NCBI RefSeq assembly: GCF_023221595.1
Contig: NZ_CP096563.1
Location: forward strand, 1 to 64,000
DNA from: Rhodococcus qingshengii JCM 15477
GTDB lineage: Bacteria; Actinomycetota; Actinomycetes; Mycobacteriales; Mycobacteriaceae
Direction: 5' to 3'
DNA length: 64,000 nt
The stretch's first letter is position 1; each line of letters opens with the position of its first letter. The notes beneath the pieces were generated by a model. The model was not told the origin of the DNA. It was given only the letters and a program-made list of their open reading frames with translations, and made no database searches. This document shows, in pieces, positions 41,843-60,011 of this stretch. The translations under genes were made by a program, and so were the position numbers.

Positions 41843-42437
41843 AGATGTGCTCCCTTTCGTGGTGACAGCATCCGTGCGCGGGATGCGAAGCAGCCAGGAG
41901 ATTGCAACCACTATCGAGGAAGATAACGGACATTCACCCCATGGCGGGGTGGTTCGACACCGATTGCTTGGCCAACGGATCTGAGTCGATTCGCAAGTCG
42001 ACCGAGGCCTGCGCGCGGGTTTTCGCGTGAACGAAGGCCCTGTATCGACTGGTGAACTCCGAATGATCCATCACGGCAAGCTGATTGAACGACTCGTTGG
42101 CTCTGGGCACTAGGTTCGGCGCGGCTACGTCAGGTCTGGGGCTGGCCATGACGTTCCCGGTCATCGCGCGCTCCGATCTGTTGTCCACTTGCGAGAAGTG
42201 CCTTTCCGAACCCTAACGGCAGGGGCTGACTTTCCTGGCCGAATTCTCGGGGTGGCACACGTCGGGCCGTCAGCGCCGGTCAGCACGAGGCTCGGTTCAA
42301 CCGACCGTGCCCGGTCGCGAGCGCTCCACCGAAAAAGGCCGCGCGAATACTCGATAATGTCTACTTATCGTAGTATTCCGGTTTCGGCAACAATGTCGAC
42401 CGCCCGGCGACCCCCGGATTCCCAGAGGGCGAGCATC
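41843..42437. other. 595-bp region without a convincing gene
   Basis: Between the small secreted protein and the uncharacterised 440-residue gene. The only open frame of any length on the minus strand (41934-42188, 84 codons) has no recognisable domain or good ribosome site. The base composition drops here relative to the core genes. It is probably island edge sequence. Confidence 0.4.
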
Positions 42438-43640
42438 TCACTCAACTCGGCCAGTCGGATCTGAATAGTGTGAAGAAATATGCCCCAGCCGATCGAACTC
42501 TTTCCATTTGTCCAGGCATGACCGTGCTCGATCGCGCTCATCCACGTGGACGATCTTCGATTCTTCGAAGCCATATGAATGTGCGAGTTTGGTGAGTAGC
42601 GATTGCTGTGATGACCATATCGCCGCGACATGGAAGATGAGATCGCTCAACTGCAGCGCGAAGATGGCTGTACCGCGATCTGGATCGGGCAGGGATAGTT
42701 GGATCCCAGCTGGAGTCGGGTGGCCGCCTTGTTCGCAATGGCGTCCGTAGTCGCTCCGTCGAAAGTGGTTGCCGTCCCGAGCATAAATCGCCTTCGGACC
42801 CCAGCGAGCTTCTCGTGCATCGCGATCCGATTGAACCCAATCGCCTATTGACCCTGGGTCGTCGTCAAATGCCCACATCAAGTATTCGAATTCAACCAAT
42901 TGACGTGCCAGCGCGGCGGCTGAATAGTAGTTTCGGAGCTCAACAAGGTTGCCAGCACCCTGAGCAAGCTGCTGAGCCGTGATCGCGACATTCGCCACAG
43001 CTACGAAAATCAAACCTTCGGGATTCCCGGTTCTACTCTCCCCTAGTCTGCCTAGTCGAAAAGCCGAACATCGCATTGCATACATAAGTGTGTTCAGTGC
43101 ATCAAGTCGTAACTTCTGGAGTGATTGATCTGACGCCGCTTCCATACTCGCCTTCCTCAACGAATCACTGTCCGACATCTGCAGCCCTGCAGGATCCGTA
43201 CGGCTCTGCTTCGACAGTTGTGCCACGATCTTGTTCGGATGCACCTTCTGTACGACTGCGATCAAGCTAGCAAGCCTGGCTGCGAGGCCTTCAGCGACAG
43301 CCCCAACCGCTTCGGCGTTCGCTTGGACGGCCTGAGGTGCGACAACACCTTCGTTGACCTCCAGTATTAAGCGAACTACGTCGGCAAACTCTTGTGTGTC
43401 GGTGCCTTCTTCTATCCCAAGCGCCGCTTCAGCCATCGCATCTCGTGCATCCTGATCTGACTCTCGTGCGTATATGAGCAGGAGCGTGGCAGTGACCGCA
43501 ACAAGACCATCGGCGCCTCGTTGAATATCCTCGCTCGCGGCTGTCGTGACCAGGCCAGCGAACCGCTCACCCTTGGCCTGCAGATGCCCGGTCAGTAGAC
43601 GGGCCCCGTATGCAACCAATCCGACTTTCGCTCCGTCCAT
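42438..43640 (-). CDS. Uncharacterised island protein (~400 residues)
   Basis: I do not recognise it. From the ATG at 43640 (MDGAKVGLVAYGARLL) it is about 400 residues, mostly alpha-helical, without signal peptide or membrane helices. The second half holds a segment NYYSAAALARQLVEFEYLMWAFDDDP and a histidine/arginine-rich part (RRSDYGRHCEQGGHPTP) that resembles helical HEPN-like or DUF5677-like proteins, a weak guess. Start choice is uncertain: the frame stays open to 43760. No ribosome site stands out. Base composition is lower in GC than the core. Confidence 0.5.
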   Translation of the reverse strand: MDGAKVGLVAYGARLLTGHLQAKGERFAGLVTTAASEDIQRGADGLVAVTATLLLIYARESDQDARDAMAEAALGIEEGTDTQEFADVVRLILEVNEGVVAPQAVQANAEAVGAVAEGLAARLASLIAVVQKVHPNKIVAQLSKQSRTDPAGLQMSDSDSLRKASMEAASDQSLQKLRLDALNTLMYAMRCSAFRLGRLGESRTGNPEGLIFVAVANVAITAQQLAQGAGNLVELRNYYSAAALARQLVEFEYLMWAFDDDPGSIGDWVQSDRDAREARWGPKAIYARDGNHFRRSDYGRHCEQGGHPTPAGIQLSLPDPDRGTAIFALQLSDLIFHVAAIWSSQQSLLTKLAHSYGFEESKIVHVDERDRARSCLDKWKEFDRLGHISSHYSDPTGRVE

Positions 43641-43779
43641 ACCGACCATTCGACCACTCGGTACCGACAGACACCCTCGGCCCTCAGAGTCTGATAGCTC
43701 GCAGATCTTCGCCGAATTGGCGAACGGGACCCTCCGCCACGAATCACAAAGGCTTGCCACGCAACAGGATCGCGAGGGC

Positions 43780-44922
43780 TCACATGGAGGTCGCGGTCAG
43801 TGGCGCCTGGTATTCGGCTCCAACACTTCTCCGGATACACCGAACTCGCGGGCGATCCTGAGCCGAAGCCACAACATCGCGGATTCCGCGAGAACCCAAG
43901 ACCTGCAAACTTCCTGTGCTCTCAATTTCACCGTTTCTGACGGCGATCAGGTGACCCAAAGATTCCATCGCTATGGCAATTTGGAACACGACGACCTCAA
44001 TAGTGGCATCGGGTTGGTACCGACTACTGACGAGTGGACCGACGATTTCCTTCCACCGCTCACCCTCCTCAATCCATCGCTTGACGCCTTTCGCCCCGAT
44101 GTCGTCGAAGGTAGACAAGACCTTGTCCCGTTCCGGAATCGCCTTTGGAGTTTGAGCGTTCCACGTCCCCTCCACACTGTGCGAGAAGTGTTCCAGCGCT
44201 GTCCGACCGGATACTTTTCGATCGGATCGAGGATCGGCATCGTCACGACTGACCTCTTCGACAGCCAGCGCGCAGGGCGACCAGTAGACGACCGTTATCA
44301 AATCTTGGACGAGTTGGTGTGCCCTCAGATGATGGTTCCAATCCGAAAGCTCCGCAGTAGGTGTCTGGATGAACACCTACTCCGTGATTGTGTGAACACC
44401 GTTCGAAAGTAACGAATTCGTGCGGAAATGTGGGAAGAGCGACAACTGGATCCCCGGTCGATAACGACTTTCGGGCTCGACTCAGCTGAGAATGATGCGC
44501 TTTTGATCAACCCTTTTCATCGAATCCACGCTTCGGAGCTGTGACGGCCGGCAGTCCAGTCCACGCAGCAGACCCATGACCTCTGATCGCAGTCCATTCA
44601 CTGTCGAAAAAGCAGAGGCGGTTCGTGGGGCGACGACCGCCGACGATGCGACAACTCGCCCTTTGCCGTGACTTTGATCGACATGCTGACGGAAACGAAA
44701 GTCGCTCAGGACGATGCGATTCGAACCGTCGACGAAGAGAATGCTTCGAGGGATCCGCCTATCTCTGAGCCACTTTTGGCATTCCCCAACCAAGTCGTGA
44801 AATGGAACTTCCAGCGTGATCGCGTTGTCGGTCAATACTAGTTGACCAACGCCGGCAGGATGCTCCGAACCGGGTACGTATATGAAACCCAACCGCCAAG
44901 GTTCGTCGAGCAGGTTCTCCAT
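43780..44922 (-). pseudogene. Broken ApeA-like (abortive-infection) gene
   Basis: Two minus-strand open segments, 44482-44922 (146 codons) and 43780-44376 (198 codons), are in the same frame and separated only by in-frame TGA (44482-44484) and TAG (about 44379) codons. The peptide between them also reads as sensible sequence. The first part starts MENLLDEPWRLGFIYVPGSE with a VGQLVLTDNAITLEV pattern like ApeA N-terminal domains; the second contains DWNHHLRAHQLVQDLITVVYW and ends in a poorly conserved stretch without a clear C-terminal HEPN motif. ApeA proteins are about 430-450 residues, the size of the joined region. A decayed phage-defence gene is the best reading; recognition of the family is by eye. 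Confidence 0.5.
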
Positions 44923-45257
44923 GGAGCCTCCGTCCGCCAGATCGTTAGGTACAACGGTGACACCTGCTTTGCAGACAGACCTCGAAAATGATCAGCGCTA
45001 CTACTTTGGAATGCTTGCCGATCCTCGTCTGTACGGCCGATAGACTTTGTTGGAGGAAGGAATGGCGAAATTTCTATCGAGGAAATTTGCCAGGTCAGAT
45101 GAAAAGTGACACTTGGTTCGGCTGCCCGACTCCGCTTGCGGATCCAGGCACATACCCAAGGTGAACATGTCCGCCTGCGGCCGGTGATCGGATTGTCCAT
45201 TCCGCCATCCGCTCAGGATAGTCCCCAGCTAATATGAGCAGTTGTAGACGAGTACGT
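44923..45257. other. Divergent region upstream of the defence-like operon
   Basis: 335 bases between the ApeA-like remnant and the large helicase gene. No gene is supported; it must contain the operon promoter. No obvious operator dyad was found. Confidence 0.4.
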
Positions 45258-48200
45258 ATGAGGAGTCTTGTGGACGCGTTCGGTGTGCTCGGAAAAGTGT
45301 TGGGCGACTATCAGTCTTTTGTCTCGGGGTTCCTGAATATCAAGGATCCCGAAGTCAAGGCGAAAGTCGAGAGCGAAATCAAGAACGGCCTCCTATGGCC
45401 GGAACCCTGGCTGGCCTTGAACCCCGCTTTCGAACCGGGTGGGACGGTCAGCGAGCTCGTCGACTCCAACGTGCTGCACCCCGCGAATCGCGAGATCTTC
45501 CGCGCCCGCACCGACGGCGACCCATTCGGTCGCGAAATCGCCTTCCACCGGCACCAGAGCGACGCGTTCACCATCGCCCAACGCGACGAGTCGTACGTCC
45601 TGACCACCGGCACAGGCTCAGGTAAATCGATGTCCTACATCGTCCCGATCGTGGACCGGGTACTACGTGAAGGCAGCGGCAAGGGTGTCCGTGCGATCGT
45701 CGTGTATCCGATGAACGCACTGGCCAACAGTCAGCGCGGGGAACTGGAGAAGTTCCTCGGCAGGGACAAACCTAAGGTCACGTTCGGCCGCTACACCGGT
45801 CAAGAAAAGCGCACCGAGCGCGAGGCGATCCTGGCCAGCCCACCCGATATCCTTCTCACCAATTACGTGATGCTCGAACTGATGCTGACCCGTCCGCGGG
45901 AACGATCCGCTTTGATCACGAGTGCCGCGAATCTGTCGTACCTCGTGCTCGACGAACTGCACACCTACCGTGGCCGGCAGGGCGCCGATGTCGCGATGCT
46001 GATTCGTCGCCTGCGTGGAGCGGTAGGAGTGAGTGATCTTCAGTGCATCGGAACCAGCGCCACCCTGGCTGGGCCCGGAACCAGAGCGGAACAGCGTCAG
46101 GAGGTGGCGGAACTCGCCACGAGAATCTTCGGCACCCAGATCCCAGCTGAAAATATCATCGGCGAAACCTTGCGCCGCGCAACAAAAGGCCAGGTAGACA
46201 ACACCGAACTGGCAGCTCGACTCGCTACGCCTGCGCCGACAACCTGGGAAGAATTGCACCGCGATCCGTTGGCGATCTGGACGGAGGAAACCTTCGGTCT
46301 CCGGGAGGACGACGAAGGAAAACTCGCGCGGCAAGTACCGACCCGACTTCAGGCCGCAGCGTCGGCACTGGCCGAGAAGACCGGTGTGGACGTCGCGCTG
46401 TGCGAGGACCGCCTCCGAGAGTTGCTGCTTACGGGATCGAAGGCTCGCGATGACAGCGGCCGACCACTGTTCGCGTTCAAGCTCCACCAGTTCATCGGAA
46501 AGGGCGACACTGCGTACGCCACCCTCGAGCGCCCGGATGCTCGCTATCTGACCACCCAATATCAGCGCAGCGCACCGGAAGGAACCGCAGGTAAGCCCCT
46601 GTTCCCGCTAGCATTTTGCCGCGAGTGCGGCCAGGACTATCTGGTCGTCAACCTCGACAGGGGCGGCGAGAACTTCAGCCCCCGCACCCTAAACGGTGGG
46701 CGCGGCGAGCAGGCTGAGGCAACAGGTCTACTCCTGATCACAGATACACCGTGGCCGGATATGCATGACCCGGCGCTCCGGGAATTGGTTCCGGACGACT
46801 GGGTCATCGAAACCGCCGGCACCCGTACTCTGGACAAGGCTCGGCGCACCCGTCTTCCACGCGGTGTTCGTGTCGATGTGTTCGGAACGATCACCGACGA
46901 CGGACTGACTGCGGCGTTCTTTGAGACGTTGCACTTTTGCCCGAGCTGCAAAACCAGTTACGAAAGCTCGCGCCAGTCCGAGTTCTCCCGGGTATCGAGC
47001 CTGGGCACCGAGGGGCGCGCGAGCGCGGTGACCGTGTTGTCGCAGGCCGTGGTCCGCACGTTGAAGGCGGAAACAGATCTCGACGACGAGGCTCGCAAGT
47101 TCTTGGCATTTTCGGATAACCGGCAGGACACGAGCCTGCAGGCAGGGCACTTCAACGATTTCGTCTCGGTGGGCATGATTCGATCCGCCCTGTACCGGGC
47201 GGCACGTGATCAGCAGGAGAAGTATCCGGACGAGCCGCTGACCGACGAAGATCTGGGGCCACGGGTGGTCAAGGTTCTCGGCGGAACTCCCGCCGACTTC
47301 GCGAAAAACCCCGACGTGGAATACGCGGCGAAAAAGAAAGTCGCCAGCGCCCTGCGCGATTCGGTTGCATATCGGATGTGGGCGGATCTGCAGCGGGGCT
47401 GGCGCATCACCATGCCGAACCTCGAGCAGACCGGCCAGCTGCGCCTCTCGTACGCGGGTATCGACGAGCTCGCTGCCGATGAGCCGAAATGGGCGGATTT
47501 GGGCCAGCCGCTGGCCGGTGCGGAACCGGCGACCCGTCTTCAGCTCATGGGGGTATTGCTCGATGAGCTGCGTCGCCATATCTGCATCGAATCGGACTAC
47601 CTCACCGAGGAGCGGTACGACAGCATCAAGCGGGCGAGCCAGGAATGGCTCCGTCCGCCGTGGGCGTTGACCGATGAAACCGGTATCTACGCCGGAACCG
47701 CATACCCGGGCAGCAGACCCAAATTTGTTGCCGGTACCGGCGCGGACCTGCATATTTCCGGTCTCGGCAATTACGGTCGGTGGCTTCGCCGACCGGACCG
47801 CTTCCCCTTGCACGATCACCCGCTCAAACCTGCGGACGCCGATACGTTGATTTCGAGCCTGCTCGCCCTGATGGCTAGGGTGGGGATCTTGGCGAAGATC
47901 GTCGAGAAGAACCGTCCCGTCGGATACCGTGTGCATGCGGGCATCATCGAATGGCATGCCGGGGACGGTGAGTACCGCGCCCCAGACCCGATCCGCGGAA
48001 ACCAGACGCAGGGCCGGGTCAACCCCTTCTTCCGCCGTTTCTACGCCGAAACAGCCTCCGGTCTCGTCGGCCTCGAGGCACGCGAGCACACCGCGCAGGT
48101 CACCGCCGAGCTCCGCCAGGACCGGGAGGACCGGTTCAGCGATGCCGCGTTGCCGGTGCTGTACTGCTCACCGACGATGGAACTCGGCGTCGACATCAAG

Positions 48201-50423
48201 AGCCTGAACGTGGTGGGGATGCGTAACGTCCCCCCGACGCCCGCCAACTACGCGCAACGCTCCGGGCGCGCAGGCCGGAGCGGTCAGCCTGCCGTCGTCC
48301 TGACCTACTGCTCCACCGGCAACGCGCATGACGCCTACTACTTCGGGCGCAGCCAGGACATGGTCGCGGGCGCCGTGGCCCCGCCGCGGCTCGAACTGGG
48401 AAACCAGGACCTCGTCCGCGCGCATGCACATGCCATCTGGCTGGTGATCTGCGATCTGGATCTGAAATCCAGCATGGTCGATCTTCTCGAGGTCGATGCA
48501 GCCGGACAGCCGCTGCGCGATGAGGTGCGCTCCAAGATCGACTCGACAACCCATGCCGCCCGCGCCGTCGCCGCTATCAGTGCGGTGTTGACCGCTACTA
48601 CTGAGGTCACCAGCGCCCCGTGGTGGAGCGATGACTGGATCGAGGAGACCGTCAAACGTGCACCTATCCGGTTCGATCGGGCTGCGGACCGCTGGCGGGG
48701 TCTCTACCGTGAATCTTTGGTCGAACTCGACAGCGCCAACGACATCCTCAAGAACATTGGGGCTTCGGAGCCTTCGAAACGGCAAGCCCGCGGGCGGATC
48801 TCCGAGGCACGCGCTGCCCTCGACTTGCTCAAAGGTCAGATCGACGACGTCAACCAGGGCGACTTCTACACCTACCGCTACTTCGCCTCGGAAGGGTTCC
48901 TACCAGGCTATTCGTTCCCCCGCCTGCCGTTGTCGGCGTTCATTCCCGCCGAACGCAGAACCAAGAACGGGCAGGGCGACTACGTGCAACGGCCCCGATT
49001 CCTCGCGATCAGCGAGTTCGGGCCAGGCGCGTTCATCTACCACGAGGGCGCCCGCTACGAGGTCAACCGAGTAAGCCTGCCCGCCCGCGAGGACGGGAGC
49101 GGTGTGAGCATCACCGAGATTAAACGATGCGAATCCTGCGGCTATCTGCATGACCTGAACGGGCCCACCAGCTACGAGGTGTGCGATCACTGCGGCTCCG
49201 CTTCCCTGCTGACGCTGAGCCGGATGATGCGGCTCCTCGCGGTCAAAACCCGGCGCCGCGACCGGATCAGCGCCGACGAGGAAGAGCGGCAACGCGCCGG
49301 CCACGAGATCGTCACCTCGATCCGATTCGAACCCCATGGCGAACGTGCTGGTCAGCTCACCAGCACGCTGACCGCCGGCGGCGACACCTTGGCCACCATG
49401 ACCTACGGGGACACCGCGTTGATCCGCCGCATGAACGTGGGTTTGCGTCGCCGCAAAGACAAAGACATCAAAGGTCACCTGCTCGATACCGTCGAAGGTA
49501 AATGGGCGCGCGAAGCCGACCTCGCCAAAAATGACGGGGCATCCGACACGACTGGCGGTGATCGTGTCCAGCGTGTCGTCCCGTACGTCGAGGACCACCG
49601 CAATGCGCTGCTCATGCACCTCTCGGCCACTATTCCGGACGAACAGCGGATGGCAGCGATGTATGCGCTCAAACGAGCCGTCGAGGCCGTATTCCAGCTT
49701 GAAAGCAACGAACTCGCCGTCGAACCGATGCCCGGCGGCTCCACCCCAGACGCCTGGTCGCGGCTGCTGTTCTTCGAAGCCGCCGAGGGCGGTGCCGGCG
49801 TACTTCGGCGCCTCGCCACCGAAGAGCAGCAGATGCACGCAGTCGCCCGCAAAGCAATGGAAATCCTGCACTACGACCCCGACACCGGTAAGGACCTCGG
49901 CAAAGCGAAACATGCCGCCGAAGCCTGCGCCCAGGCCTGCTACGACTGCCTACTGTCCTACGGCAATCAATGGGACCACCAACTGCTCGACCGGCACTGC
50001 GTGATCGAACTGCTCGGGCAGTTGGCAACCGCAACTCTGGTAGTCGGCGGCGGCGGCGAGGAACGCACCGACCGATTGACCCGCCTCGAAGAACCCAGCA
50101 ACAGCCTCGAAAAACAATTCCTGCGGTTCCTCGAAGAACACGGCTACCGCCTACCCGATACCGCGCAACAACTTGTCGACGGCTACTACGTCCGACCGGA
50201 TTTCGCGTTCCACACCGACGGCGGCGACGTCGCGATCTTCGTGGACGGGCCGATCCACGATTCCGATCATCAGAGCGAGAAAGACGAGCAAGCACGCATG
50301 AAGCTCGAAGACGAAGCAGGCTGGCTGGTACTGCGCTTCCACCACGCAGACGCAGAAGGCGGATGGCGTGAGACAGTCTCTCGTCATCCCTCCGTATTCG
50401 GGCAGGGCAGGGCAGGCGCATGA
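45258..50423 (+). CDS. Large DEAD/DEAH helicase with DUF1998/MZB region and C-terminal nuclease-like segment
   Basis: About 1721 residues. The N-terminal helicase has Walker A TGTGSGKS (about 117-124), DELH (about 232-235) and SAT (about 267-269); the second RecA fold has YAQRSGRAGR (around DNA 48250). Zinc-type pairs occur at FCRECGQD, CPSCKTSY and CESCGYLH...CDHCG. A DUF1998/MZB element reads CAQACYDCLLSYGNQWDH near DNA 49930. The last ~110 residues (RPDFAFHT, VAIFVDGPIHDS, WLVLRF) look like a PD-(D/E)XK/DUF559-type nuclease. It resembles DruE or a DrmA-DrmB fusion. Start uncertain: GTG at 45270, with GAGGAG close upstream, is the alternative. Overlaps the next gene by four bases. Confidence 0.85.
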   Translation: MRSLVDAFGVLGKVLGDYQSFVSGFLNIKDPEVKAKVESEIKNGLLWPEPWLALNPAFEPGGTVSELVDSNVLHPANREIFRARTDGDPFGREIAFHRHQSDAFTIAQRDESYVLTTGTGSGKSMSYIVPIVDRVLREGSGKGVRAIVVYPMNALANSQRGELEKFLGRDKPKVTFGRYTGQEKRTEREAILASPPDILLTNYVMLELMLTRPRERSALITSAANLSYLVLDELHTYRGRQGADVAMLIRRLRGAVGVSDLQCIGTSATLAGPGTRAEQRQEVAELATRIFGTQIPAENIIGETLRRATKGQVDNTELAARLATPAPTTWEELHRDPLAIWTEETFGLREDDEGKLARQVPTRLQAAASALAEKTGVDVALCEDRLRELLLTGSKARDDSGRPLFAFKLHQFIGKGDTAYATLERPDARYLTTQYQRSAPEGTAGKPLFPLAFCRECGQDYLVVNLDRGGENFSPRTLNGGRGEQAEATGLLLITDTPWPDMHDPALRELVPDDWVIETAGTRTLDKARRTRLPRGVRVDVFGTITDDGLTAAFFETLHFCPSCKTSYESSRQSEFSRVSSLGTEGRASAVTVLSQAVVRTLKAETDLDDEARKFLAFSDNRQDTSLQAGHFNDFVSVGMIRSALYRAARDQQEKYPDEPLTDEDLGPRVVKVLGGTPADFAKNPDVEYAAKKKVASALRDSVAYRMWADLQRGWRITMPNLEQTGQLRLSYAGIDELAADEPKWADLGQPLAGAEPATRLQLMGVLLDELRRHICIESDYLTEERYDSIKRASQEWLRPPWALTDETGIYAGTAYPGSRPKFVAGTGADLHISGLGNYGRWLRRPDRFPLHDHPLKPADADTLISSLLALMARVGILAKIVEKNRPVGYRVHAGIIEWHAGDGEYRAPDPIRGNQTQGRVNPFFRRFYAETASGLVGLEAREHTAQVTAELRQDREDRFSDAALPVLYCSPTMELGVDIKSLNVVGMRNVPPTPANYAQRSGRAGRSGQPAVVLTYCSTGNAHDAYYFGRSQDMVAGAVAPPRLELGNQDLVRAHAHAIWLVICDLDLKSSMVDLLEVDAAGQPLRDEVRSKIDSTTHAARAVAAISAVLTATTEVTSAPWWSDDWIEETVKRAPIRFDRAADRWRGLYRESLVELDSANDILKNIGASEPSKRQARGRISEARAALDLLKGQIDDVNQGDFYTYRYFASEGFLPGYSFPRLPLSAFIPAERRTKNGQGDYVQRPRFLAISEFGPGAFIYHEGARYEVNRVSLPAREDGSGVSITEIKRCESCGYLHDLNGPTSYEVCDHCGSASLLTLSRMMRLLAVKTRRRDRISADEEERQRAGHEIVTSIRFEPHGERAGQLTSTLTAGGDTLATMTYGDTALIRRMNVGLRRRKDKDIKGHLLDTVEGKWAREADLAKNDGASDTTGGDRVQRVVPYVEDHRNALLMHLSATIPDEQRMAAMYALKRAVEAVFQLESNELAVEPMPGGSTPDAWSRLLFFEAAEGGAGVLRRLATEEQQMHAVARKAMEILHYDPDTGKDLGKAKHAAEACAQACYDCLLSYGNQWDHQLLDRHCVIELLGQLATATLVVGGGGEERTDRLTRLEEPSNSLEKQFLRFLEEHGYRLPDTAQQLVDGYYVRPDFAFHTDGGDVAIFVDGPIHDSDHQSEKDEQARMKLEDEAGWLVLRFHHADAEGGWRETVSRHPSVFGQGRAGA

Positions 50424-53281
50424 CCGTCACCGACTTCCCTCCCGGAACCCTCATCAACGCCCGCGGCCGCGACTGGCTCGTCCTCCCCGGAGCAACTGAG
50501 GGAACGATCCTCGCCCGACCCCTCGGCGGACGCGACGACGAAACAACCCTGCTGCTACCGCAATTCGACGATCCGAAAGCGGCAGTCTTCGACGCCCCCA
50601 CAGTCGAGGATCGTGGTGACGCTGCCCGCGCCCGACTGCTCCGGGATGCTCTACGGCTCTCCTTCCGCGTCACCTCGGGTCCATTCCGATCGTTCGCTCA
50701 GCTGGCCGTCACCCCCCGCAACTACCAGCTCGTGCCGCTGATGATGGCCACCGCACAGGACACGACCCGACTGCTCATCGCAGACGGTGTCGGTGTCGGC
50801 AAGACCGTCGAAGCCGGACTGATCGCCGCGGAACTTCTCGCGACCGGCGACGCACAGCGCCTCGTGGTTCTCTGCTCCCCGCAGCTCGCCCCCCAATGGC
50901 AGGCGGAACTGCGCAGCAAGTTCGGGATCAACGCCGAGCTGCTGCTGCCCTCGACGGTGAACCGACTCAAGGTGCCGTGGGGTTCGACCGTCTACGAGCA
51001 CTACCCGTACCTGATCATCTCCACCGACTTCATCAAACAGCGCAGCCGCCGCGACGAATTCGCATTGAAGTGCCCCGAACTGGTCATCGTCGACGAAGCT
51101 CACACCTGCATCGCGCCGAGTACTGCCGGGTCGAGTCAGGCCCACCAGCGGTACACGTTGCTCCGTAAACTCGCCGACGACCCCACCCGGCATTTGTTGC
51201 TGCTCACCGCTACCCCGCACAGCGGGGACGACGGGGCCTGGCAATCGCTTGTCGGGTTGCTCGACAACAGGCTCGGGGAGCTCCCCGCCGATCTGTCCGG
51301 ACCCCATCGTGACGAGGACCGGAAACTGCTCGCTCAGTTTCTCATCCAGCGTCAACGCGCCGACATCCGCGAATATTTGGACGAGGACACCCCCTTTCCG
51401 AAGCGAGAACGAGCCGAGGAAAGCTACAAGCTGACCCCCGAATATCGGGCCCTGTTCGACAAGGTCATGCGCTTCGCCCGCGAACAAGTCTCCGATCCGT
51501 CGCTGAACACGGTGCGTCAACGTGTGCGGTGGTGGTCCGCGATCGCACTGCTGCGCTCGATCGCCTCGAGTCCCGCAGCTGCCGAGCAGACCCTGCTCAA
51601 CCGCTCCGAACTCAGCGCCAGCGAAACGAAGGAAGACGCGGACTCCATCGCCGCCCCCCGCGTCCTCGATGTGGACCTCGACGACGCCGTCGAAGGCGAC
51701 GACACCGCCCTCGGCGCCGATACCTTCGACAGTGACGGACCGGACGGGTCGGCCCGCCGTCGACTGCGCGAATTCGCCGCCATCGCAAAGTCATTGAAGG
51801 GCGTCAAGGGTGATGCGAAGCTCAAACGCCTGATCGTGCTTCTGACGGAACTCCTCGTCGAGGGCTATCACCCGATCGTCTTCTGCCGATACATCCCCAC
51901 TGCCGAATACCTGGCCGAACACCTCGGCGCGGCATTGACGAAAAAACACCGCACCCTGCGAGTCGAATCGGTCACCGGCAACCTGCCTCCGGAAGAGCGG
52001 CAAGCGCGGGTCTCCGAGCTCACCGCTCACGACGGACCCAGGCTGCTGATCGCCACCGACTGCCTCTCCGAGGGAGTGAACCTGCAAGACGGATTCACAG
52101 CAGTGGTGCACTACGACCTCGCGTGGAACCCCACCCGACACGAACAACGCGAAGGCCGCGTCGACCGATTCGGTCAACGCGCCGATGTCGTCCGCGCGAT
52201 CACCTACTACGGCGTCGACAACGGCATCGACGGAGTGGTACTCGACGTCCTGATCCGCCGGCACGAACGTATCCGCCGCAGCACCGGGGTGTCGGTGCCG
52301 ATCCCAGTCGACTCGACCACCGTCATGACCGCGATTTGGGAGTCTCTCCTGTTGCGCGGCAACGAGACCGACCAACTCACTTTGGATTTGGGGTCAGCCA
52401 CCTCGAGTGCGGTCACCGATGCCGTGGACATGCAGTGGATCGATGCTGCGGAACGTGAGAAGGTATCCCGCTCACGGTTCCGGCAGGCATCCCTGAGCCC
52501 CGATGCTGTCGCCGAGACACTCGCCGACGTCCGACGCTCCCTCGGCGGCCCCGCCGACGCCGAAGTGTTCGTCCGTGACGCCCTGACCTTGCTCTCCGGG
52601 CAGCTGAGCGAGACCGCCGACGGGTTCTCTGCCCGCATCGACACCCTTCCGCCGGCGGTCCGCGAACAACTACCCCCCTCGAAGAAGCCGATCCTGCAGT
52701 TCCACCGGTCCTTCCCGGTCCCGGCCGGCGATCACGTGCTGAGTCGCACTGACCCGACCGTCGAATCCATCGCACGCTACGTCCTCGACGCGGCTCTCGA
52801 TCCCGAATTGCCCCCCACCCAGCGGCCCGCCCGCCGAGCCGGCGTCATCCGCACCACCAGTGTCGAGAAGGTCACGACACTGCTCGTCGTCCGATTCCGG
52901 CTCGAACTGATCATCCCCGGGGCCAAGACCACGATCACCCAGGTCGCCGAGGACGCCCAGTTCCTGGCCTTCACCAACAGTGGCGACACCCTGTCCTGGC
53001 TCGAGGAATCCGCCGTCGAAAACCTGCTTGCCGCACGCCCCACCGGAAACGTCGCGGACGAGCTCGCCCGCACCCAACTCGACCGAGTTCTGGGCCGCCT
53101 CGACGGCACCGTCGGCCACCTGACCAACCGAGGCGAGGCAATCGCTGCCGCCGCCGTGGCGGATCACCGCAAGGTACGTAAGAGCAGCAAAACCGGGATC
53201 AAGGGGCTACGAGCACGACTACTCCCACCCCCGGACGTCCTCGGCGTCTACGTCTACCTCCCCGATCGGAGCGCATCGTGA
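50420..53281 (+). CDS. SNF2-family helicase resembling DrmD
   Basis: 953 residues. A short N-terminal SH3-like part (FPPGTLINARGRDWLV) leads to a SNF2 ATPase: Walker A GVGVGKT (123-129), DEAH (225-228), LTATPHSGDDGAW, then the second fold with FCRYIPTAEYLAEHL, ATDCLSEGVNLQ and HEQREGRVDRFGQ. A C-terminal ~350 residues has no clear catalytic motif. This is the plan of DISARM DrmD. Start ATG overlaps the previous stop (ATGA) and its stop overlaps the next start (GTGA), so the genes are translated as a unit. Likely remodels or scans DNA for the methylase partner. Confidence 0.85.
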   Translation: MTVTDFPPGTLINARGRDWLVLPGATEGTILARPLGGRDDETTLLLPQFDDPKAAVFDAPTVEDRGDAARARLLRDALRLSFRVTSGPFRSFAQLAVTPRNYQLVPLMMATAQDTTRLLIADGVGVGKTVEAGLIAAELLATGDAQRLVVLCSPQLAPQWQAELRSKFGINAELLLPSTVNRLKVPWGSTVYEHYPYLIISTDFIKQRSRRDEFALKCPELVIVDEAHTCIAPSTAGSSQAHQRYTLLRKLADDPTRHLLLLTATPHSGDDGAWQSLVGLLDNRLGELPADLSGPHRDEDRKLLAQFLIQRQRADIREYLDEDTPFPKRERAEESYKLTPEYRALFDKVMRFAREQVSDPSLNTVRQRVRWWSAIALLRSIASSPAAAEQTLLNRSELSASETKEDADSIAAPRVLDVDLDDAVEGDDTALGADTFDSDGPDGSARRRLREFAAIAKSLKGVKGDAKLKRLIVLLTELLVEGYHPIVFCRYIPTAEYLAEHLGAALTKKHRTLRVESVTGNLPPEERQARVSELTAHDGPRLLIATDCLSEGVNLQDGFTAVVHYDLAWNPTRHEQREGRVDRFGQRADVVRAITYYGVDNGIDGVVLDVLIRRHERIRRSTGVSVPIPVDSTTVMTAIWESLLLRGNETDQLTLDLGSATSSAVTDAVDMQWIDAAEREKVSRSRFRQASLSPDAVAETLADVRRSLGGPADAEVFVRDALTLLSGQLSETADGFSARIDTLPPAVREQLPPSKKPILQFHRSFPVPAGDHVLSRTDPTVESIARYVLDAALDPELPPTQRPARRAGVIRTTSVEKVTTLLVVRFRLELIIPGAKTTITQVAEDAQFLAFTNSGDTLSWLEESAVENLLAARPTGNVADELARTQLDRVLGRLDGTVGHLTNRGEAIAAAAVADHRKVRKSSKTGIKGLRARLLPPPDVLGVYVYLPDRSAS

Positions 53282-56200
53282 GTGGGCTGTCCGCCTTCAA
53301 ATCCGTACGGACCGTCGGCACCGTCCTGCCGAGCGAGGCACTCACTCGGGCCGTTGACCTGCGCATGCCAGGCCAGAAGGCCGCCGACTACCAACTCCCA
53401 CCCGGAATGGCAGTCAATGCGGCCATCGCCCGCGGCTGGGAGGCGATGCTCGCAGCCCACCGCGAGTGGACCCAGTCACTCGATCGTCTGCCACCGGGAG
53501 ATCCGGCGACCAAACTCACCCGCGAGAAGTGGATGCTCCCGCTGCTCTACGAACTCGGGTGGGGACGCCCCGAGGTGGTCGGCGGCGGTCTCGACGTGGA
53601 ACCCGGGCTCGGGGAAACTGCTCCACCGCACTTCCCGATATCCCACCGCCTGACCTGGCCCAACTCCACACAACCCACAGTGTGGGTGCCGTTGCACCTG
53701 CTGGGTGCCGGTGTCTCGCTCGACAGCAGAACCGAGGGTGTGACCGCGAGGGCACCCCAGTCGATGGTGCAGGACTACCTCAACCGCGAGGACCGCGCAT
53801 TGTGGGCAGTGCTGTCCAACGGTCGATCGCTGCGACTGCTGCGCGACGCATCGACACTGGCCAAACAGTCCTACGTCGAGTTCGACCTCGACGACATCTT
53901 CACCAATCAGCGCTACGCAGATTTCCGGCTTCTCTTCCTCACCGCTCACGCGAGCAGATTCGCCCCACTCTTCGAAAGTCCCGCAACGGAACTGGCCGAG
54001 AGTGACATCGAACCTGCGGACTCCGGGCTCAAACCAGAGGACTGCTGGCTCGAAACCTGGCGCACCACCGCGATCGAAGACGGCGCTCGGGCACTACTCA
54101 CCCTTCAGCAAGGCGTCGCGACCGCATTGCAACACCTCGGAACAGGCTTCGTGAGCCACCCGGCGAACACTGCACTCCGCGACACCCTCGCGCACGCCCA
54201 GGACGCCGACCGCGACCTGCACCGCGCACTACTGCGCATCGCTTACCGGCTCATCGTCCTGTTCGTCGCCGAAGACCGGGACCTACTCCACACCCTGTCC
54301 ACCGAATCCGATGCCCGTGTGCTTTACACCGAGCACTTTTCCACAGCACGATTGCGCCGCATGGCCAGCACACGGGGCGGTAGCCGCCACACCGATCTGT
54401 GGGAAGCACACCAAATCGTCACCGACGCCCTCTCCGGCGAAGGGCTACCGGTACTCGGGCTGAACGGATTGGGCGCGACTCTGTTCGCGCGCGAGAACCT
54501 CAGCGTGCTCGGAGGCGCGAAACTACCCAACAACAGTTTCCTGGCCGCCATCAAAGCTTTGGCCGAGATCGACGACCCGGCAACAGGTACCCCACGGCCG
54601 GTCGACTACCGCAACCTCGACAGCGAAGAACTCGGCGGAATGTACGAGGGGTTGCTGGCTTTCACTCCCCGCTACGACGCCGCGGCCCGTACATTCAGCC
54701 TCGAGATCGCCGCCGGTAACGACCGCAAGAAGTCCGGCTCCTACTACACCCCTTCCGATCTCATCGCACTCGTCCTCGACGAGGCACTCAACCCGCTGAT
54801 CGACGAAGCCATGCGCACACCCGACCCGGAAGCGGCGCTACTTGCTCTCACCGTCGTGGACCCGGCAGTAGGCTCAGGCCATTTCGTTGTCGCCGCGGCC
54901 CGCCGTCTGGCCGCAGCCGTCGCCACGGTGCGCACAGGAGACACCGAACCCAACCCGATCGACCTACGGGCCGCCACCGCCGATGTCATCGAACGCTGCA
55001 TCTACGGTGTCGACCTCAACGATCTCGCCATCGAGATCACCAAAGTCGCCCTCTGGCTCGAAGCCTTCGACGCACAGCGGCCCTTCCCGTTCCTCGACGC
55101 ACACTTCAAGGTCGGCAACGCACTCCTCGGCACCACCCCGGAACTGTTGCGCCACAACATCCCCGACACAGCATTCACTGCTCTCGGCGACGACGACAAA
55201 CAATGGACCAGCAAACTCAAAGCCCGCAACAAAGCCGAACGCGCCGCGAACGAGGACCAGCTGACCTTCAGCTTCGGGCCGGAAACCTTGAACGTCGAGA
55301 CCACGAAGTTCACCAAAGCAGCACGCGAAGCTGACACCGGCCGCGCCGCCGACCTCAGGCGAATGCGGGCCCGAGCCGATGCATGGCGCACTCTCGAAGC
55401 AGACCCCGACCTTGTTGCTGCGAAACTAGCAGCCGACGCCTGGTGTGCCGCATTCGTTCAACCCAAGACGAAAACGGTGGGACCGCAACCGGAGAACTTC
55501 GCGTCCTCCGGGCAGGGCATCACCCACAACACTCTCCGGAACATCGTCGAAAACCCTGACGTCGTTCCCGAAACTATCGTCCCATCGGTGCGGAAGCTTG
55601 CTCGCCAATACCGTTTCTTCCACTGGCACCTAGAATTCCCCGGGATCTTCACCGTCCCCGACGACGGCACCGCAGCCGACCCAGAAACGGGTTGGACCGG
55701 CGGGTTTTCTTGCGTCGTCGGCAACCCGCCGTGGGAACGCGTGAAGATCCAGGACAAGGAATTCTTCACCAACATCGGCCGTATCGATATTGCCGACTCG
55801 AAGACAGCGGCCCTCCGCAAGAAGATGATCGACGCGCTCGCCGAACAAGACCCAAACCTGCACCAGGCCTACCATGATGTGCTCCGGCAATCCGACGGCA
55901 CCACTCACCTCCTATTGCGTGGTGGACGCTACCCGCTTACAGGTCAAGGCGACGTCAATACCTATAGCGTGTTCGCCGAAACTATGCGCACCATCACCGC
56001 GCCCGACGGGACCGCCGGAGTCATCACTCCCACCGGACTCGCCACCGACAAGACAACCGCACCCTTCTTCTCCGACACGCTCAGCAGTGAACGGCTCCTT
56101 GCGTTTTATGATTTCGAGAACGAAGCAAAGATCTTCGCTGGTGTGCACAATCAGTTTCGGTTCGCCATCACGGCAATGTCCGGCAGCAGACGCACAGCAG

Positions 56201-57390
56201 CACGTGCCAGGTTCGCCTTCTATACTCGCTACCTGTCTGACGTGGCTGCCAGGCGCTTCGACCTTTCGCCTAGCGAGGTGAAACTGTTGAATCCCAATAC
56301 AGGAACTGTTCCAATTTTCCGCACCCGTATCGACGCCGACATCACCCTCGGCATCTACCGCCGTCACCCCGCGCTCATCCGAGACGACGCACCCGACGGA
56401 AACCCCTGGGGCCTGAGCTTCACGCGACTCTTCGACATGGCTAACGACTCGGGACTGTTCCACCAGCCGGAGGACCTGGCCGACGCAGAATTCAACGGAT
56501 GGTCCTACGAACGAGATGACCGTGAGTATGTGCCCCTGTACGAGGCGAAAATGCTCAGCCACTTCGACCACCGCTTCTCCACCTACCGCGATGCAACCCA
56601 GGCCAATTTAAATAAAGGAACCCTGCCGCGGCTGGATGACGACCAGCATCAGGACCCTAGCCTCGAGCCCCTCGCCCGTTATTGGATAGACAGACCCAAA
56701 GTCGCAGAGGCGCTTCACGAGAAATGGGACCGGCAGTGGTTGCTCGGCTGGCGCGACATTACCAACGCAAGTAATCAGCGCACGTTCGTTCCCTCAGCGC
56801 TCCCGGCTTCTGCGGTGGGTGATAAGTTTCTGCTGGCTTTCCCTAAGAACAGTGCGCATGGCCCGCTACTTCACACAGTGTGGTCAACCCTCGCTTTTGA
56901 CTACGTTGCGAGGCAGAAGATCAGTGGAACCGGGATGAAGTACTTCATCGTCAAACAGCTCGCATGCCCTACCCCGTCCATCTTCGAGGAACGCGCTGCT
57001 TGGCAATCGGAAAGGTCTCTCGCTGCGTGGGTTACCCCATACATTCTCGAACTGTCGTATGCATCATGGCGCATACGGCCCTACGCGCAGGAGATGGGCG
57101 ACAACGGCGCACCGTTCCACTGGGATCCCGAGCGCCGATCATTGCTCCGGGCTGACCTTGACGCGGCATTCCTCCACGTCTACGGCCTCACCCGATCAGA
57201 ATCTGAGCACGTTCTCGACTCATTCCCCGTTGTCCGTAAATACGAGGAGCGCGATCACGGCGAATACCGCACCCGTCGTTTAGTCCTGGAAGCCTACGAC
57301 CGAATGGCGACCGCGATCGCCCGAGGCGGAACAGGTTGGGAATCGTTGGCCGAGGTTCCGGCAGGAGAAGGGCCTCGCCATGCCGGATGA
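53278..57390 (+). CDS. Large class I adenine-specific DNA methylase (Eco57I/DrmMI type)
   Basis: 1370 residues. The N-terminal ~500 residues include segments common to type I/IIG enzymes (LSNGRSLRLLRD, YVEFDLDDIF, ADFRLLFLTAHASRF) but no visible ExK nuclease motif. The methylase core starts at KKSGSYYTPSDL, with motif I DPAVGSGHF (528-536) and motif IV NPPW (816-819), so it should methylate N6 of adenine. The remainder is likely the recognition part. Part of the last third is AT-richer (for example around DNA 56610). Relatives are DrmMI of DISARM and PglX of BREX. Coupled to both neighbours. Confidence 0.88.
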   Translation: MSGLSAFKSVRTVGTVLPSEALTRAVDLRMPGQKAADYQLPPGMAVNAAIARGWEAMLAAHREWTQSLDRLPPGDPATKLTREKWMLPLLYELGWGRPEVVGGGLDVEPGLGETAPPHFPISHRLTWPNSTQPTVWVPLHLLGAGVSLDSRTEGVTARAPQSMVQDYLNREDRALWAVLSNGRSLRLLRDASTLAKQSYVEFDLDDIFTNQRYADFRLLFLTAHASRFAPLFESPATELAESDIEPADSGLKPEDCWLETWRTTAIEDGARALLTLQQGVATALQHLGTGFVSHPANTALRDTLAHAQDADRDLHRALLRIAYRLIVLFVAEDRDLLHTLSTESDARVLYTEHFSTARLRRMASTRGGSRHTDLWEAHQIVTDALSGEGLPVLGLNGLGATLFARENLSVLGGAKLPNNSFLAAIKALAEIDDPATGTPRPVDYRNLDSEELGGMYEGLLAFTPRYDAAARTFSLEIAAGNDRKKSGSYYTPSDLIALVLDEALNPLIDEAMRTPDPEAALLALTVVDPAVGSGHFVVAAARRLAAAVATVRTGDTEPNPIDLRAATADVIERCIYGVDLNDLAIEITKVALWLEAFDAQRPFPFLDAHFKVGNALLGTTPELLRHNIPDTAFTALGDDDKQWTSKLKARNKAERAANEDQLTFSFGPETLNVETTKFTKAAREADTGRAADLRRMRARADAWRTLEADPDLVAAKLAADAWCAAFVQPKTKTVGPQPENFASSGQGITHNTLRNIVENPDVVPETIVPSVRKLARQYRFFHWHLEFPGIFTVPDDGTAADPETGWTGGFSCVVGNPPWERVKIQDKEFFTNIGRIDIADSKTAALRKKMIDALAEQDPNLHQAYHDVLRQSDGTTHLLLRGGRYPLTGQGDVNTYSVFAETMRTITAPDGTAGVITPTGLATDKTTAPFFSDTLSSERLLAFYDFENEAKIFAGVHNQFRFAITAMSGSRRTAARARFAFYTRYLSDVAARRFDLSPSEVKLLNPNTGTVPIFRTRIDADITLGIYRRHPALIRDDAPDGNPWGLSFTRLFDMANDSGLFHQPEDLADAEFNGWSYERDDREYVPLYEAKMLSHFDHRFSTYRDATQANLNKGTLPRLDDDQHQDPSLEPLARYWIDRPKVAEALHEKWDRQWLLGWRDITNASNQRTFVPSALPASAVGDKFLLAFPKNSAHGPLLHTVWSTLAFDYVARQKISGTGMKYFIVKQLACPTPSIFEERAAWQSERSLAAWVTPYILELSYASWRIRPYAQEMGDNGAPFHWDPERRSLLRADLDAAFLHVYGLTRSESEHVLDSFPVVRKYEERDHGEYRTRRLVLEAYDRMATAIARGGTGWESLAEVPAGEGPRHAG

Positions 57391-59665
57391 ACAGGTACCT
57401 CAGGCGAGCGGAACCGCGCCGGAACTTGAGGTCGCATCTTCAGAAACTGGCCCCTCGAGTAGCAGGCCGCAGGGGCATCGAAGCCCAGGCATCATCGAGG
57501 AACTCCTCACCGCGATCCTGATAGACGGAGCCGATACCCATCCTGCTGTTTTGGTGGCAGATGGGCCGGAAGCCACGACGATTGAATCGCCCACACCCGA
57601 GGGATGGCCAATGCGATTGGTGCCCAACATGATCGAACTAGCAGCCTCAGCTAGCGAGGAACTCCAGGCAAGGCCCGTTGTACTGATCCCGCCGTGGGAA
57701 CGGGGTCAGCGGAACGGACAATACGATTCTTATGAGCAGGTCCTTCTGGACTGCGATCCAAGTCATGCAGAGTTTCCGCTAATAACTCTGATTCCGGCCG
57801 CCTGCCTCGATTCCCAACGCGGTGAATCCTTTCGAGAGCAACTGTTCACGCGATGGCATCCCACGGTGATCGCCTACGTCAAGGGTGGGATCGAAGGCGT
57901 ACACCGCCAGTTCGAGACTGCCATCCTGGTCTTGAGGAGACCCGAAGATGCAGCTGGTCCGGTGCGACTATTTGAAACGCCAAGACGACCAACGATGGAG
58001 TCTTCCGACGTAATCGAAGACTTTCGGCGACTCCTACGGATGAAAGGCGGTAGTCGGGACTTCGGCTACGTCCTTCAATCCGCCCCGGACAGTGGCGCAG
58101 GACTGGGCTTCCGGCGCAATGACCCCAGGATCGCAGCACGCAGGAAGCAACTAGCGGACTTCGGACAAGCAACTCGGCTCGATGAGGTATTTGAGATTCG
58201 CCCGCTCGGTATCAATCAAACGATGGCGAAAGCTCATCAGGTTGACCGCAACTTCGAGGGTGCGACCCGAATCCTGACAGGACGTGATATTCAGCGCGGC
58301 GGCCGAATCGCATTCGGCGACGAAGCATCGCTATGGTCGTCGGTAGAGTCAGAAGCGCGACTCAGAGCGGGCGATATCGTGATGCGTGCACTGCATATAC
58401 CTACCGTCCGTCCAGGTTTGGTGTGGGCCAGAGTCACCAAAGAAGACCTTCCGGTGGCGAGCAGCCACACCGTTCTCGTCCTTCGGCCTCGCGAAATGGT
58501 TGAGCCTGTCGTCGAGGACTTCATACTTCGGTTCTTGTCTTCGAGGCAGGCCACTGAACTTATTGACTTCAGGACAGCTGGGCTGTATCTGAATCGTAAT
58601 GATGTAGGCGCACTGCAGGTTCCGATCCCTGATGAGTCAATGCGCACGGCCCTTGAGTCGGTGCAGTATGCGCGTGATCGCGCGGGGGAATGGCAATCAG
58701 AGGCCAGTGAATTGCTTGATTCGATCTTCGACGAGGATACGGCCGCTGTATCGAAGAACCGAGTTTTGCGCGCGAGCCGAACCGTGCGGTGGCGTATCGA
58801 TGCCGCAGAAGCGATAAACGATTTCGGACACCAAATACGGACACGATTCCCGCATCCTGTCGCATATCGCTGGCGAGTTGCCGAAGCTCTGTTATCGACA
58901 GGACCTAATGCCGACGGCTACCGCGCAGTCCTCGAAGCGGCAGAGGTACTCCTTGCCTACACAGCAAATGTGGCGCTCGCGCTGGCCCACGCAGCAGGAA
59001 TCACTGCCGGTTCCATCGATGGGATTCGAAAAAAGCTTACCGCGGGCCAAGGCCCGGGGATGGGTGACTGGGTCGCTGTCCTGAATGAGATCACTGGAAA
59101 AGGGTTTACCGCACTCGATGAGCGATTCGGTATCCCAGAGATTCGTGAGTTCTTCGCGCACTCCGACGTTCGCGATGCGCAGCGCTGGCTCAGCGCACGA
59201 CGCAACGACGAAGCCCATCATCGCCGCGTCGATTCCATTGATCTACCTCAGGTGTGTGAGCGAGCAGTCCAGGAACTGCTGATTCTCATGCGAGCTGCGG
59301 AATTCATTGCCGACCTCCCGTTACTGCTGATCGTCTCCACCCAATGGGATTCGTTGGCGAGTAAAGGAACTGCTAGTTACCGCCAGTTGACGGGGGACCA
59401 CACCGTTGTACGGCAACAGACGATGAAGGTTACGGACTCGGTAATTGAGAAGGGAAGCTTGTATATTCGGGATTCTGACCATCGACTTCACCTCATGAGA
59501 CCGCATCTTATCGGCCGAGAATGCCCCACATGTCGAGACCTTTCAATCTTCCACATAGACAAGATTAATGGCGGGATTGCGGTGCTAAAGAGCCTTGAGC
59601 ACGGGCATACCGTCGAGGATGCTGATCTACTTGAATCTCTAGCATTGGTGGGATTCGTCGCATAG
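57380..59665 (+). CDS. Decayed methylase + HsdS-like recognition region + HEPN-like protein
   Basis: 761 residues, fourth gene of the operon. Residues ~95-190 look like a methylase C-part without catalysis (VVLIPPWERG, LITLIPAACLDSQRGESFRE, FETAILVLRR). Residues ~255-420 resemble a HsdS target-recognition domain (LTGRDIQRGG, LRAGDIVMRAL, LYLNRNDVGALQVPIPDE). Residues ~520-640 form a helical block with RNDEAH (R608-x4-H613), a HEPN-type motif. The tail has CPTC (715-718) and His-rich ends. It overlaps the methylase gene by 11 bases. Lower GC than genes 1-3. Role inferred: specificity factor and possibly an RNase effector. Confidence 0.7.
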   Translation: MPDEQVPQASGTAPELEVASSETGPSSSRPQGHRSPGIIEELLTAILIDGADTHPAVLVADGPEATTIESPTPEGWPMRLVPNMIELAASASEELQARPVVLIPPWERGQRNGQYDSYEQVLLDCDPSHAEFPLITLIPAACLDSQRGESFREQLFTRWHPTVIAYVKGGIEGVHRQFETAILVLRRPEDAAGPVRLFETPRRPTMESSDVIEDFRRLLRMKGGSRDFGYVLQSAPDSGAGLGFRRNDPRIAARRKQLADFGQATRLDEVFEIRPLGINQTMAKAHQVDRNFEGATRILTGRDIQRGGRIAFGDEASLWSSVESEARLRAGDIVMRALHIPTVRPGLVWARVTKEDLPVASSHTVLVLRPREMVEPVVEDFILRFLSSRQATELIDFRTAGLYLNRNDVGALQVPIPDESMRTALESVQYARDRAGEWQSEASELLDSIFDEDTAAVSKNRVLRASRTVRWRIDAAEAINDFGHQIRTRFPHPVAYRWRVAEALLSTGPNADGYRAVLEAAEVLLAYTANVALALAHAAGITAGSIDGIRKKLTAGQGPGMGDWVAVLNEITGKGFTALDERFGIPEIREFFAHSDVRDAQRWLSARRNDEAHHRRVDSIDLPQVCERAVQELLILMRAAEFIADLPLLLIVSTQWDSLASKGTASYRQLTGDHTVVRQQTMKVTDSVIEKGSLYIRDSDHRLHLMRPHLIGRECPTCRDLSIFHIDKINGGIAVLKSLEHGHTVEDADLLESLALVGFVA

Positions 59666-60011
59666 AGGTGCACGTTCGGCGGCGAATGAGGGATGGTATT
59701 GAGCTCCGTCGGCTCGCCACCCGTTAACAGAGACGGATCGGTTGTCGACATTGTGTCCTCGACCTGACGAGTACGATCTACCTACGCGCTGCTGGTGCAC
59801 AGAGTCGATCGGCGAGGTCGGATCGATCCACGGGCGGGAGCTCTCGGGCCCCCTTGGCATCCGTGCGGCGTAGTCGATTTTGGCGCCGGTCGGTCATCAA
59901 CTTTGCCGATTGAAAGTGACTAGAAGCAGCCCGCGAACAATCTCTCAGCCACATTAAGGTGAATACACAGGATTCGTATGTGTCCGAAATGTCGTCCCCA
60001 TCGGGGACGCC
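59666..60011. other. 346-bp region at the right end of the island
   Basis: No gene is supported. It holds a short hairpin at 59993-60009 (CGTCCCC-ATC-GGGGACG), a possible terminator for the two convergent transcripts. No copy of the tRNA-Leu 3' end is seen here. Confidence 0.45.
59993..60009. terminator. Short hairpin between island operon and oxidoreductase gene
   Basis: CGTCCCC (59993-59999), loop ATC, GGGGACG (60003-60009), three bases before the stop codon of the leftward gene. No T-tract. Confidence 0.35.

Follow-up and report, generated by a model that had tools for sequence, protein, structure and literature searches.

Four overlapping genes of Rhodococcus qingshengii raise the question of which defense system they encode, and whether the fourth gene is part of it. 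The genes lie in the first 64,000 nucleotides of contig NZ_CP096563.1 of strain JCM 15477 (assembly GCF_023221595.1, positions 1-64,000), the whole stretch of DNA analyzed here, which is referred to as the window and whose coordinates are used throughout. An earlier note had proposed the operon as an undescribed anti-phage system. Open reading frame (ORF) calls confirm its account of the overlaps, which are 4, 4 and 11 bases, and all four genes are intact; domain calls and a comparison of neighborhoods support its view of the locus as a defense operon. The combination of genes is not undescribed, however, as ARMADA Type I, in the available text of a recent preprint (Bell et al., bioRxiv Sept 2025, PMC12458937), joins in the same order a DruE-like YprA helicase to a BrxHII-like helicase and a PglX-like methylase. 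Had all four proteins fallen within one described system, the note's proposal would have failed altogether; three of them do, and gene 4 is absent from that text. It is reasonably probable that genes 1-3 encode ARMADA Type I, which acts against phages, and that gene 4, a separately acquired accessory, has become coupled to it. The features under discussion are collected in Table 1.

Table 1. Coordinates of the operon, of the parts of the gene 4 protein and of the surrounding island
Feature	Position	Strand	Description
Gene 1	45258..50423	+	YprA-family (ArmC-like) helicase: superfamily 2 (SF2) core, MrfA Zn-binding/DUF1998 module, C-terminal PD-(D/E)xK domain
Gene 2	50420..53281	+	BrxHII/RapA-like SF2 helicase, ArmA-like, resembles DrmD; 953 amino acids
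Gene 3	53278..57390	+	PglX/DrmMI-like N6-adenine DNA methylase, ArmB-like; 1370 amino acids
Gene 4	57380..59665	+	761 amino acids; eroded N6-methylase fold, recognition domain, HEPN-like domain, C-terminal beta domain
Gene 4, eroded N6-methylase fold	about residues 31-228		methylase-like by fold comparison
Gene 4, target-recognition domain	about residues 261-405		HsdS-type by sequence and fold
Gene 4, helical linker			between recognition domain and HEPN-like domain
Gene 4, HEPN-like helical domain	R608-N-x3-H613
Gene 4, C-terminal beta domain	C715xxC718 and H743
Variable island	41970..59980		other cargo in four close relatives
tRNA-Leu (CAG)	41362..41447	+	called by ARAGORN; just outside left island border
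Two ORFs, 198 and 440 amino acids	42438..44376	-	weak ApeA N-terminal match in the upstream one

Judged by sequence, genes 1-3 are classed as ARMADA Type I because gene order, component parts and zinc modules agree. As far as the available text of PMC12458937 describes it, Type I generally consists of a YprA helicase, then a BrxHII-like/RapA-like helicase and then a PglX-like methylase; its YprA protein is fused to a DUF1998 module, contains additional zinc modules and a BrxA-like helical domain after RecA1, and ends in a Vsr-type nuclease predicted to be active, and the type is abundant in Actinomycetota. The window operon has the same three-gene order and, in its YprA protein, the fused DUF1998, the inserted zinc modules and a C-terminal PD-(D/E)xK domain. 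It differs in having a fourth overlapping gene, which that text does not mention for Type I. In comparison with ARMADA Type II of E. coli (ArmA-B-C-D), the helicases and the methylase are homologous, whereas the order of the genes is different and the E. coli operon ends with ArmD (a UvrD helicase with a RelE-like part), which is absent from the window.

Loci were compared in a sample of 80, those with the greatest similarity to gene 2 among 420 that matched it; chosen in this way, the sample leans to the window's own lineage. The order gene 1, gene 2, gene 3 is the same in all 75 loci showing all three. The remaining five loci each lack one core gene, four the methylase and one gene 1. Library scans with PADLOC 2.0.0, Pfam and NCBIfam covered nine ORFs across 42.4-63.4 kb of the window. 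Since each of genes 1-3 has family matches in these libraries, the best with E-values from 1e-17 to 1e-261, and their order is constant across loci, the operon is not a chance arrangement. The catalytic motifs of both helicases and of the methylase are intact in the window and conserved in the relatives compared, for which the ORF picker kept 75, 37 and 67 of the 80 loci for genes 1, 2 and 3, respectively.

The longest ORF of gene 1 spans 45234-50423 (1729 amino acids), and the start at 45258, which gives 1721 amino acids, is likelier because most relatives align from about codon 11-14 of that ORF. Three Pfam domains are found above their cut-offs: PF00270 (DEAD/DEAH), PF00271 (Helicase_C) and PF09369 (MrfA Zn-binding). 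The DUF1998/MZB module is therefore in the same chain as the helicase, as in Type I, and together with the best PADLOC match (DruE3, 358 bits, partial) it bears out the earlier description of gene 1 as a DruE-like protein with a built-in DUF1998 zinc module. The inserted CxxC modules of Type I are represented by Cys pairs at 462/465, 569/572, 1299/1302 and 1317/1320; these four pairs and the Walker A/B motifs are kept in 75/75 relatives picked. The C-terminal PD-(D/E)xK domain, again a feature of the type, occupies about residues 1625-1725 of the 1729-residue ORF starting at 45234, and its residues P1641, D1642, D1656 and D1671 are kept in 66-74 of 75 relatives. In the window protein this end of the chain matches the PD-(D/E)xK families MTES_1575 (E 0.0006) and DUF559 (E 0.0007), both under cut-offs; among relatives, at E <= 0.1, MTES_1575 is matched in 30/37, DUF559 in 27/37, and the Vsr model in 4/37 only. 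Profiles of the nuclease domain and of residues 285-940, the YprA middle region in which a BrxA-like helical domain was sought, gave no credible match to PDB sequences. Direct comparison with E. coli ATCC 8739 yields 175 bits for ArmC of its ARMADA Type II locus and 168 bits for DruE of the Druantia III system, which shares an island with that locus.

Genes 2 and 3 had been read as DrmD-like and DrmMI/PglX-like, and the PADLOC and Pfam matches agree. Gene 2 matches the PADLOC model PDLC02853, labelled DpdE, with 868 bits over residues 6-952, followed by DrmD with 263 bits. It does not reach the NCBIfam cut-offs for DrmD (291 bits, cut-off 610) or DpdE (166 bits, cut-off 500), and it matches ArmA of E. 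coli ATCC 8739 with 132 bits. A Dpd system was considered and rejected, as the DpdE cut-off is missed and no 7-deazaguanine gene is found among the nine scanned ORFs. The "DpdE" label of PDLC02853 itself looks wrong, given a full-length match to an ARMADA-type helicase and an NCBI DpdE score far under cut-off; PADLOC 2.0.0 would probably misname ARMADA-type helicases as DpdE. In gene 3, motif I (DPAVGSG) is found at 528 and motif IV (NPPW) at 816, the latter kept in 67/67 relatives picked. Its Pfam match is PF07669 (Eco57I/N6-methylase, DrmMI/type IIG-like; E 1.2e-17), and it scores 179 bits with the PADLOC DrmMI model and 109 bits with ArmB of E. coli ATCC 8739.

The slot downstream of the methylase is variable. 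It could be followed in 66 of the 80 loci, those in which the methylase is nearly complete and no less than 5 kb lies beyond it (5-6 kb are visible). A same-strand ArmD-like gene is found downstream in 28 of the 66, and all 28 were found with E. coli ArmD itself. McrB is present in 28 loci, McrC in 25, GmrSD in 10 and gene 4 in 1, with none of these in 18; the categories overlap, and two of the 28 McrB matches and several of those to ArmD are only partial, being cut off where the stretch ends. Locus L018, where a gene 4 relative is adjacent to the core, stands outside this count because less than 5 kb is available downstream. The UvrD helicases behind Type I cores (e.g. L006, L015, L037) can be aligned with E. 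coli ArmD over almost the whole length, and GmrSD lies directly behind an ArmD-like gene in 9 of its 10 loci. A link of McrBC to a DISARM-like cassette has been reported before (available text of PMC12458937 and PMC11090510), and ArmD has been described for Type II, with none mentioned behind Type I cores in the available text of PMC12458937. On plasmid pMP1 of D. radiodurans R1 (L097, 14829-19855), an ARMADA Type I-like core is followed by McrBC, and its methylase is made up of two annotated pieces and a third matching stretch.

Turning to gene 4, no family was found for it in Pfam, NCBIfam or PHROGs, and PADLOC gave a weak HsdS-type match only. The family looks new; none was located in the literature available to us, which does not prove it unpublished. 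The recognition domain is followed by a long helix, and its likeness to HsdS together with the R-N-x3-H motif upholds the note's description of an HsdS-like protein with a HEPN-like part. In HsdS/Esub1 terms, the likeness lies in the recognition domain at residues about 261-405; unlike those proteins, gene 4 has a single recognition domain, which shares its chain with a methylase-like and a HEPN-like part. Gene 4 relatives in viral contigs were found neither by sequence nor by alignment search. Kinship of gene 4 with other neighbor families was rejected by a profile comparison with seven clusters, in which the top probability was 2.4%.

The methylase-like domain is eroded at its motifs. Among the eight aligned gene 4 sequences that carry it, none has N, D or S before PPW: six have I/F/M/V-PPW and two have no PPW. 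A G-rich motif I, which would bind S-adenosylmethionine (SAM), is missing at the aligned place. An active N6-adenine methylase was accordingly rejected as a candidate role, as neither (N/D/S)PP(Y/F/W) nor a SAM-binding motif is present. A parallel, likened by description only, may be DndH, in which an eroded adenine methylase and a recognition domain share one chain with a nuclease, as read here in gene 4; DndH has a DNase and an ATPase, whereas gene 4 has the HEPN-like domain. In the available text of PMC10853773, the eroded methylase of DndH with its recognition domains is proposed to bind without modification.

In the helical domain, R-N-x3-H is found in all 12 sequences of alignment A2, down to 20% identity, and fits the HEPN pattern Rx4-6H. 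A2 consists of chosen gene 4 sequences; it leaves out the distant relatives L083-L088, L094 (near-identical to L092), an interrupted copy (L105/L109), a broken copy (L082/L116) and the small partial hits L101, L107 and L108. A wider alignment has 21 rows, nine of them beyond A2 and one gene entered twice, and shows R-N-x3-H in 16, K-N-x3-H in five (L084-L088) and the H in all 21. L083-L088, from genomes of one other family, are distant relatives sharing only the C-terminal half of gene 4, with K-N-x3-H in five of the six. The full-length model of gene 4 is weak (predicted local distance difference test, pLDDT, of 60; four sequences). Foldseek searches with the C-terminal model returned mostly ribosomal proteins, with no recognized HEPN among the 50 rows listed, and below 2jpu the VIA-align rows held unrelated proteins, helical bundles and barrels.

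The distribution of gene 4 differs from that of the core. A relative is found near the core in 3 of the 80 loci, twice downstream and once upstream. In L018, whose gene 1 is 91% identical to that of the window, the relative adjoins the core: it is 74% identical along most of the gene, is broken in two by a frameshift, and starts where the methylase match ends. In L022 it lies 1.5 kb downstream of the core (40%), and in L037 just upstream of gene 1 (38%). The R. qingshengii plasmid pCP1 (L095) carries a core 98/98/96% identical to that of the window and no gene 4; this plasmid is typed as mobilizable, and gene 2 is annotated there as two overlapping genes. The stretch L001 likewise has a core (91/94/85% identical) and no gene 4. 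Genome samples at three ranks, which overlap, give a similar picture. Full-length gene 4 is present in 4 of 401 family genomes, including the window's own and G653 (by positions, the L018 genome). Among 394 genomes of the class, besides the window's own, there is one full-length gene 4 (G981) and one interrupted copy, and among 396 genomes of the phylum there are seven other matches, all to the C-terminal part only. Short forms occur on Streptomyces plasmids.

Gene 4 is also found without the core. Four stretches (L110, L111, L112 and L091) have a relative and no ARMADA core in the part fetched; no Type I YprA is found in the gene 4 carriers G707 and G488, which have general helicase matches to gene 1 only; and in G981 a full Type I YprA is present on a contig other than that of gene 4. 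In a comparison of 11 gene 4 contexts no kept partner gene was seen. The shared neighbors were IS21 transposases and several genes of the near-identical plasmid pair L092/L094, along with single weaker matches between L093/L094, L093/L114 and L114/L116. The GC content at third codon positions (GC3) of gene 4 is lower than that of the adjacent methylase in 4/4 loci. Because it is scattered near cores, occurs without them, has no kept partner and has lower GC3, gene 4 is best regarded as mobile, a unit that became docked to the core in the lineage to which the window and L018 belong; docking was probably separate in L022 and L037, which have the gene at other places. A role as a constant fourth component was rejected, given its presence near the core in only 3 of 80 loci, its absence from the 96-98% identical core of pCP1 and its occurrence without a core elsewhere. 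As side observations, the relative at L114 (7778-12478) is interrupted by an IS21-like insertion, and that of G707 lies between an OLD/AriA-like ATPase and an NB-ARC protein in what looks like another defense island (L110, 7222-9252 and 14854-17052).

How the parts may act can be outlined from the domains of the core and from the experiments in the available text of PMC12458937, which concern Type II in E. coli: there, phage protection came without signs of cell death and was abolished by Walker A and NPPW changes. The core would resemble a restriction-modification (R-M) system, in which the gene 3 methylase marks self DNA at the sequence it reads and the two helicases engage unmarked foreign or replicating DNA. 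The YprA helicase would travel along the DNA, with cutting by its C-terminal PD-(D/E)xK domain. We infer that gene 4 works with this core rather than beside it. Its eroded methylase fold and recognition domain would most likely recognize a DNA sequence and leave it unmethylated; such binding, or else a failing core, would release a HEPN-type RNase that serves as a back-up by halting translation or killing the cell. HEPN RNases act as dimers, and therefore two gene 4 recognition domains would read a two-part site.

HEPN RNases have been proposed as back-ups of R-M and BREX-type systems (available texts of PMC3710099 and PMC12839542), and according to the former, fusions of R-M-linked HEPN domains are with nucleases, helicases and ATPases, not with methylases. 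Were gene 4 to cleave RNA once it has read DNA, it would be an exception to that statement in which the methylase fold is kept and the catalytic motif is gone. A broader proposal, which we put forward tentatively and regard as rather unlikely, is that gene 4 founds an undescribed family of DNA-reading RNases, built of eroded methylase, recognition domain, HEPN and zinc end, which would cleave RNA once a DNA site is recognized, and that Type I has a variable effector slot holding gene 4, an ArmD-like protein, McrBC or GmrSD. Its odds are lowered by the change of R to K in L084-L088. If it were true, one ARMADA Type I core could be fitted with different second lines of defense. Very similar cores without gene 4 (pCP1, 96-98%) and with it (the window; L018) offer a natural comparison for the contribution of the accessory.

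The most serious alternative to a coupled accessory, possible though not the likelier account, is that gene 4 is an unrelated single-gene defense that merely landed beside the core, detects phage DNA and cleaves RNA on its own. The lack of a kept partner in the 11 contexts (the near-identical plasmid pair and scattered single matches aside), the carriers G707 and G488 with no Type I YprA match, a GC3 below that of the neighbor and the short Streptomyces plasmid forms would all suit such a gene. Closer attachment is suggested by the 11-base overlap and an AGGAG upstream of the gene 4 start in the window, by the L018 match that begins at the methylase match end, and by a frequency near the core of 3/80 loci against 4/401 family genomes with the full-length gene, the window's own and that of L018 counted.

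It is improbable that gene 4 instead serves the ARMADA methylase as an additional specificity subunit, extending the range of sites that it marks and restricts, with the HEPN-like part as a mere dimer scaffold. The HsdS-like recognition domain with its long helix and the R to K change in five distant relatives are consistent with that role, as is the erosion of the methylase motifs, by which a partner enzyme would be needed. A scaffold, however, would not need R-N-x3-H, kept in 12/12 sequences, with its H in 21/21 rows; moreover, relatives occur in genomes without the core and most cores lack such a gene.

That the core is a DISARM or Druantia variant rather than ARMADA is very improbable. The best library names point in that direction (DruE for gene 1, DrmMI for gene 3, and DrmD second for gene 2): DISARM class 1 (drmD, drmMI, drmA, drmB, drmC) shares with the window its DrmD- and DrmMI-like proteins, and Druantia its large YprA-family helicase, gene 1 being about as similar to DruE as to ArmC. 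DISARM was nonetheless rejected, as the DrmA and DrmB parts are fused in one window gene with no separate DrmB, the DrmD score of 291 bits lies under the curated cut-off of 610, and no DrmC was matched among the nine ORFs scanned, in keeping with the note's remark that a phospholipase D-type (PLD) protein is missing. Druantia was rejected because none of those ORFs is one of the type-specific partners of DruE (DruA-D, DruM/F/G or DruH); a methylase and a second helicase are present. Such a mix is itself the definition of ARMADA in the available text of PMC12458937. Equally hard to credit is a new system, as first proposed for this locus, that would stand apart from ARMADA, DISARM and Druantia and require gene 4 as its fourth component. 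Gene 4 does match nothing in NCBIfam, Pfam and PHROGs and reaches only weak PADLOC models of HsdS type, but genes 1-3 agree in order and parts with Type I as published, and the pCP1 core, 98/98/96% identical, does without gene 4.

The operon lies in an island that is a defense hot spot, bounded by the tRNA-Leu(CAG) gene and a crtO-like oxidoreductase gene; the tRNA that the note had placed beside the island is confirmed. In four close relatives (L132, L133, L134 and L135) the flanks are 96-98% identical and 7.5 to 15.2 kb of different DNA stands between the borders. By blastn, the left border falls at window position 41968-41969 in three of them and at 42378 in the fourth, and the right border at 59979-59981 in all four. 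Beyond short border stretches, the four inserts have little in common with each other, and nothing was found in common with that of the window. Among the cargo ORFs scanned, two relatives have Type I R-M genes; one has a restriction enzyme and a methylase along with a PDC-S37/Hhe protein, and one a caspase-like protein together with a TIR protein. All four relatives carry cargo, so that no empty site was seen among them; no direct repeats of at least 15 bases were found at the two island borders, and no integrase among the seven island ORFs scanned. Upstream of the operon, the gene that the note had called a broken ApeA-like neighbor lies in a pair of adjacent ORFs. The ORF at 43780-44376 on the minus strand has as its sole match a weak one to ApeA_NTD1 (PF18862, E 0.0017), under the Pfam cut-off; the 440-residue ORF had no match in the library scans. 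The pair is possibly a decayed defense gene.

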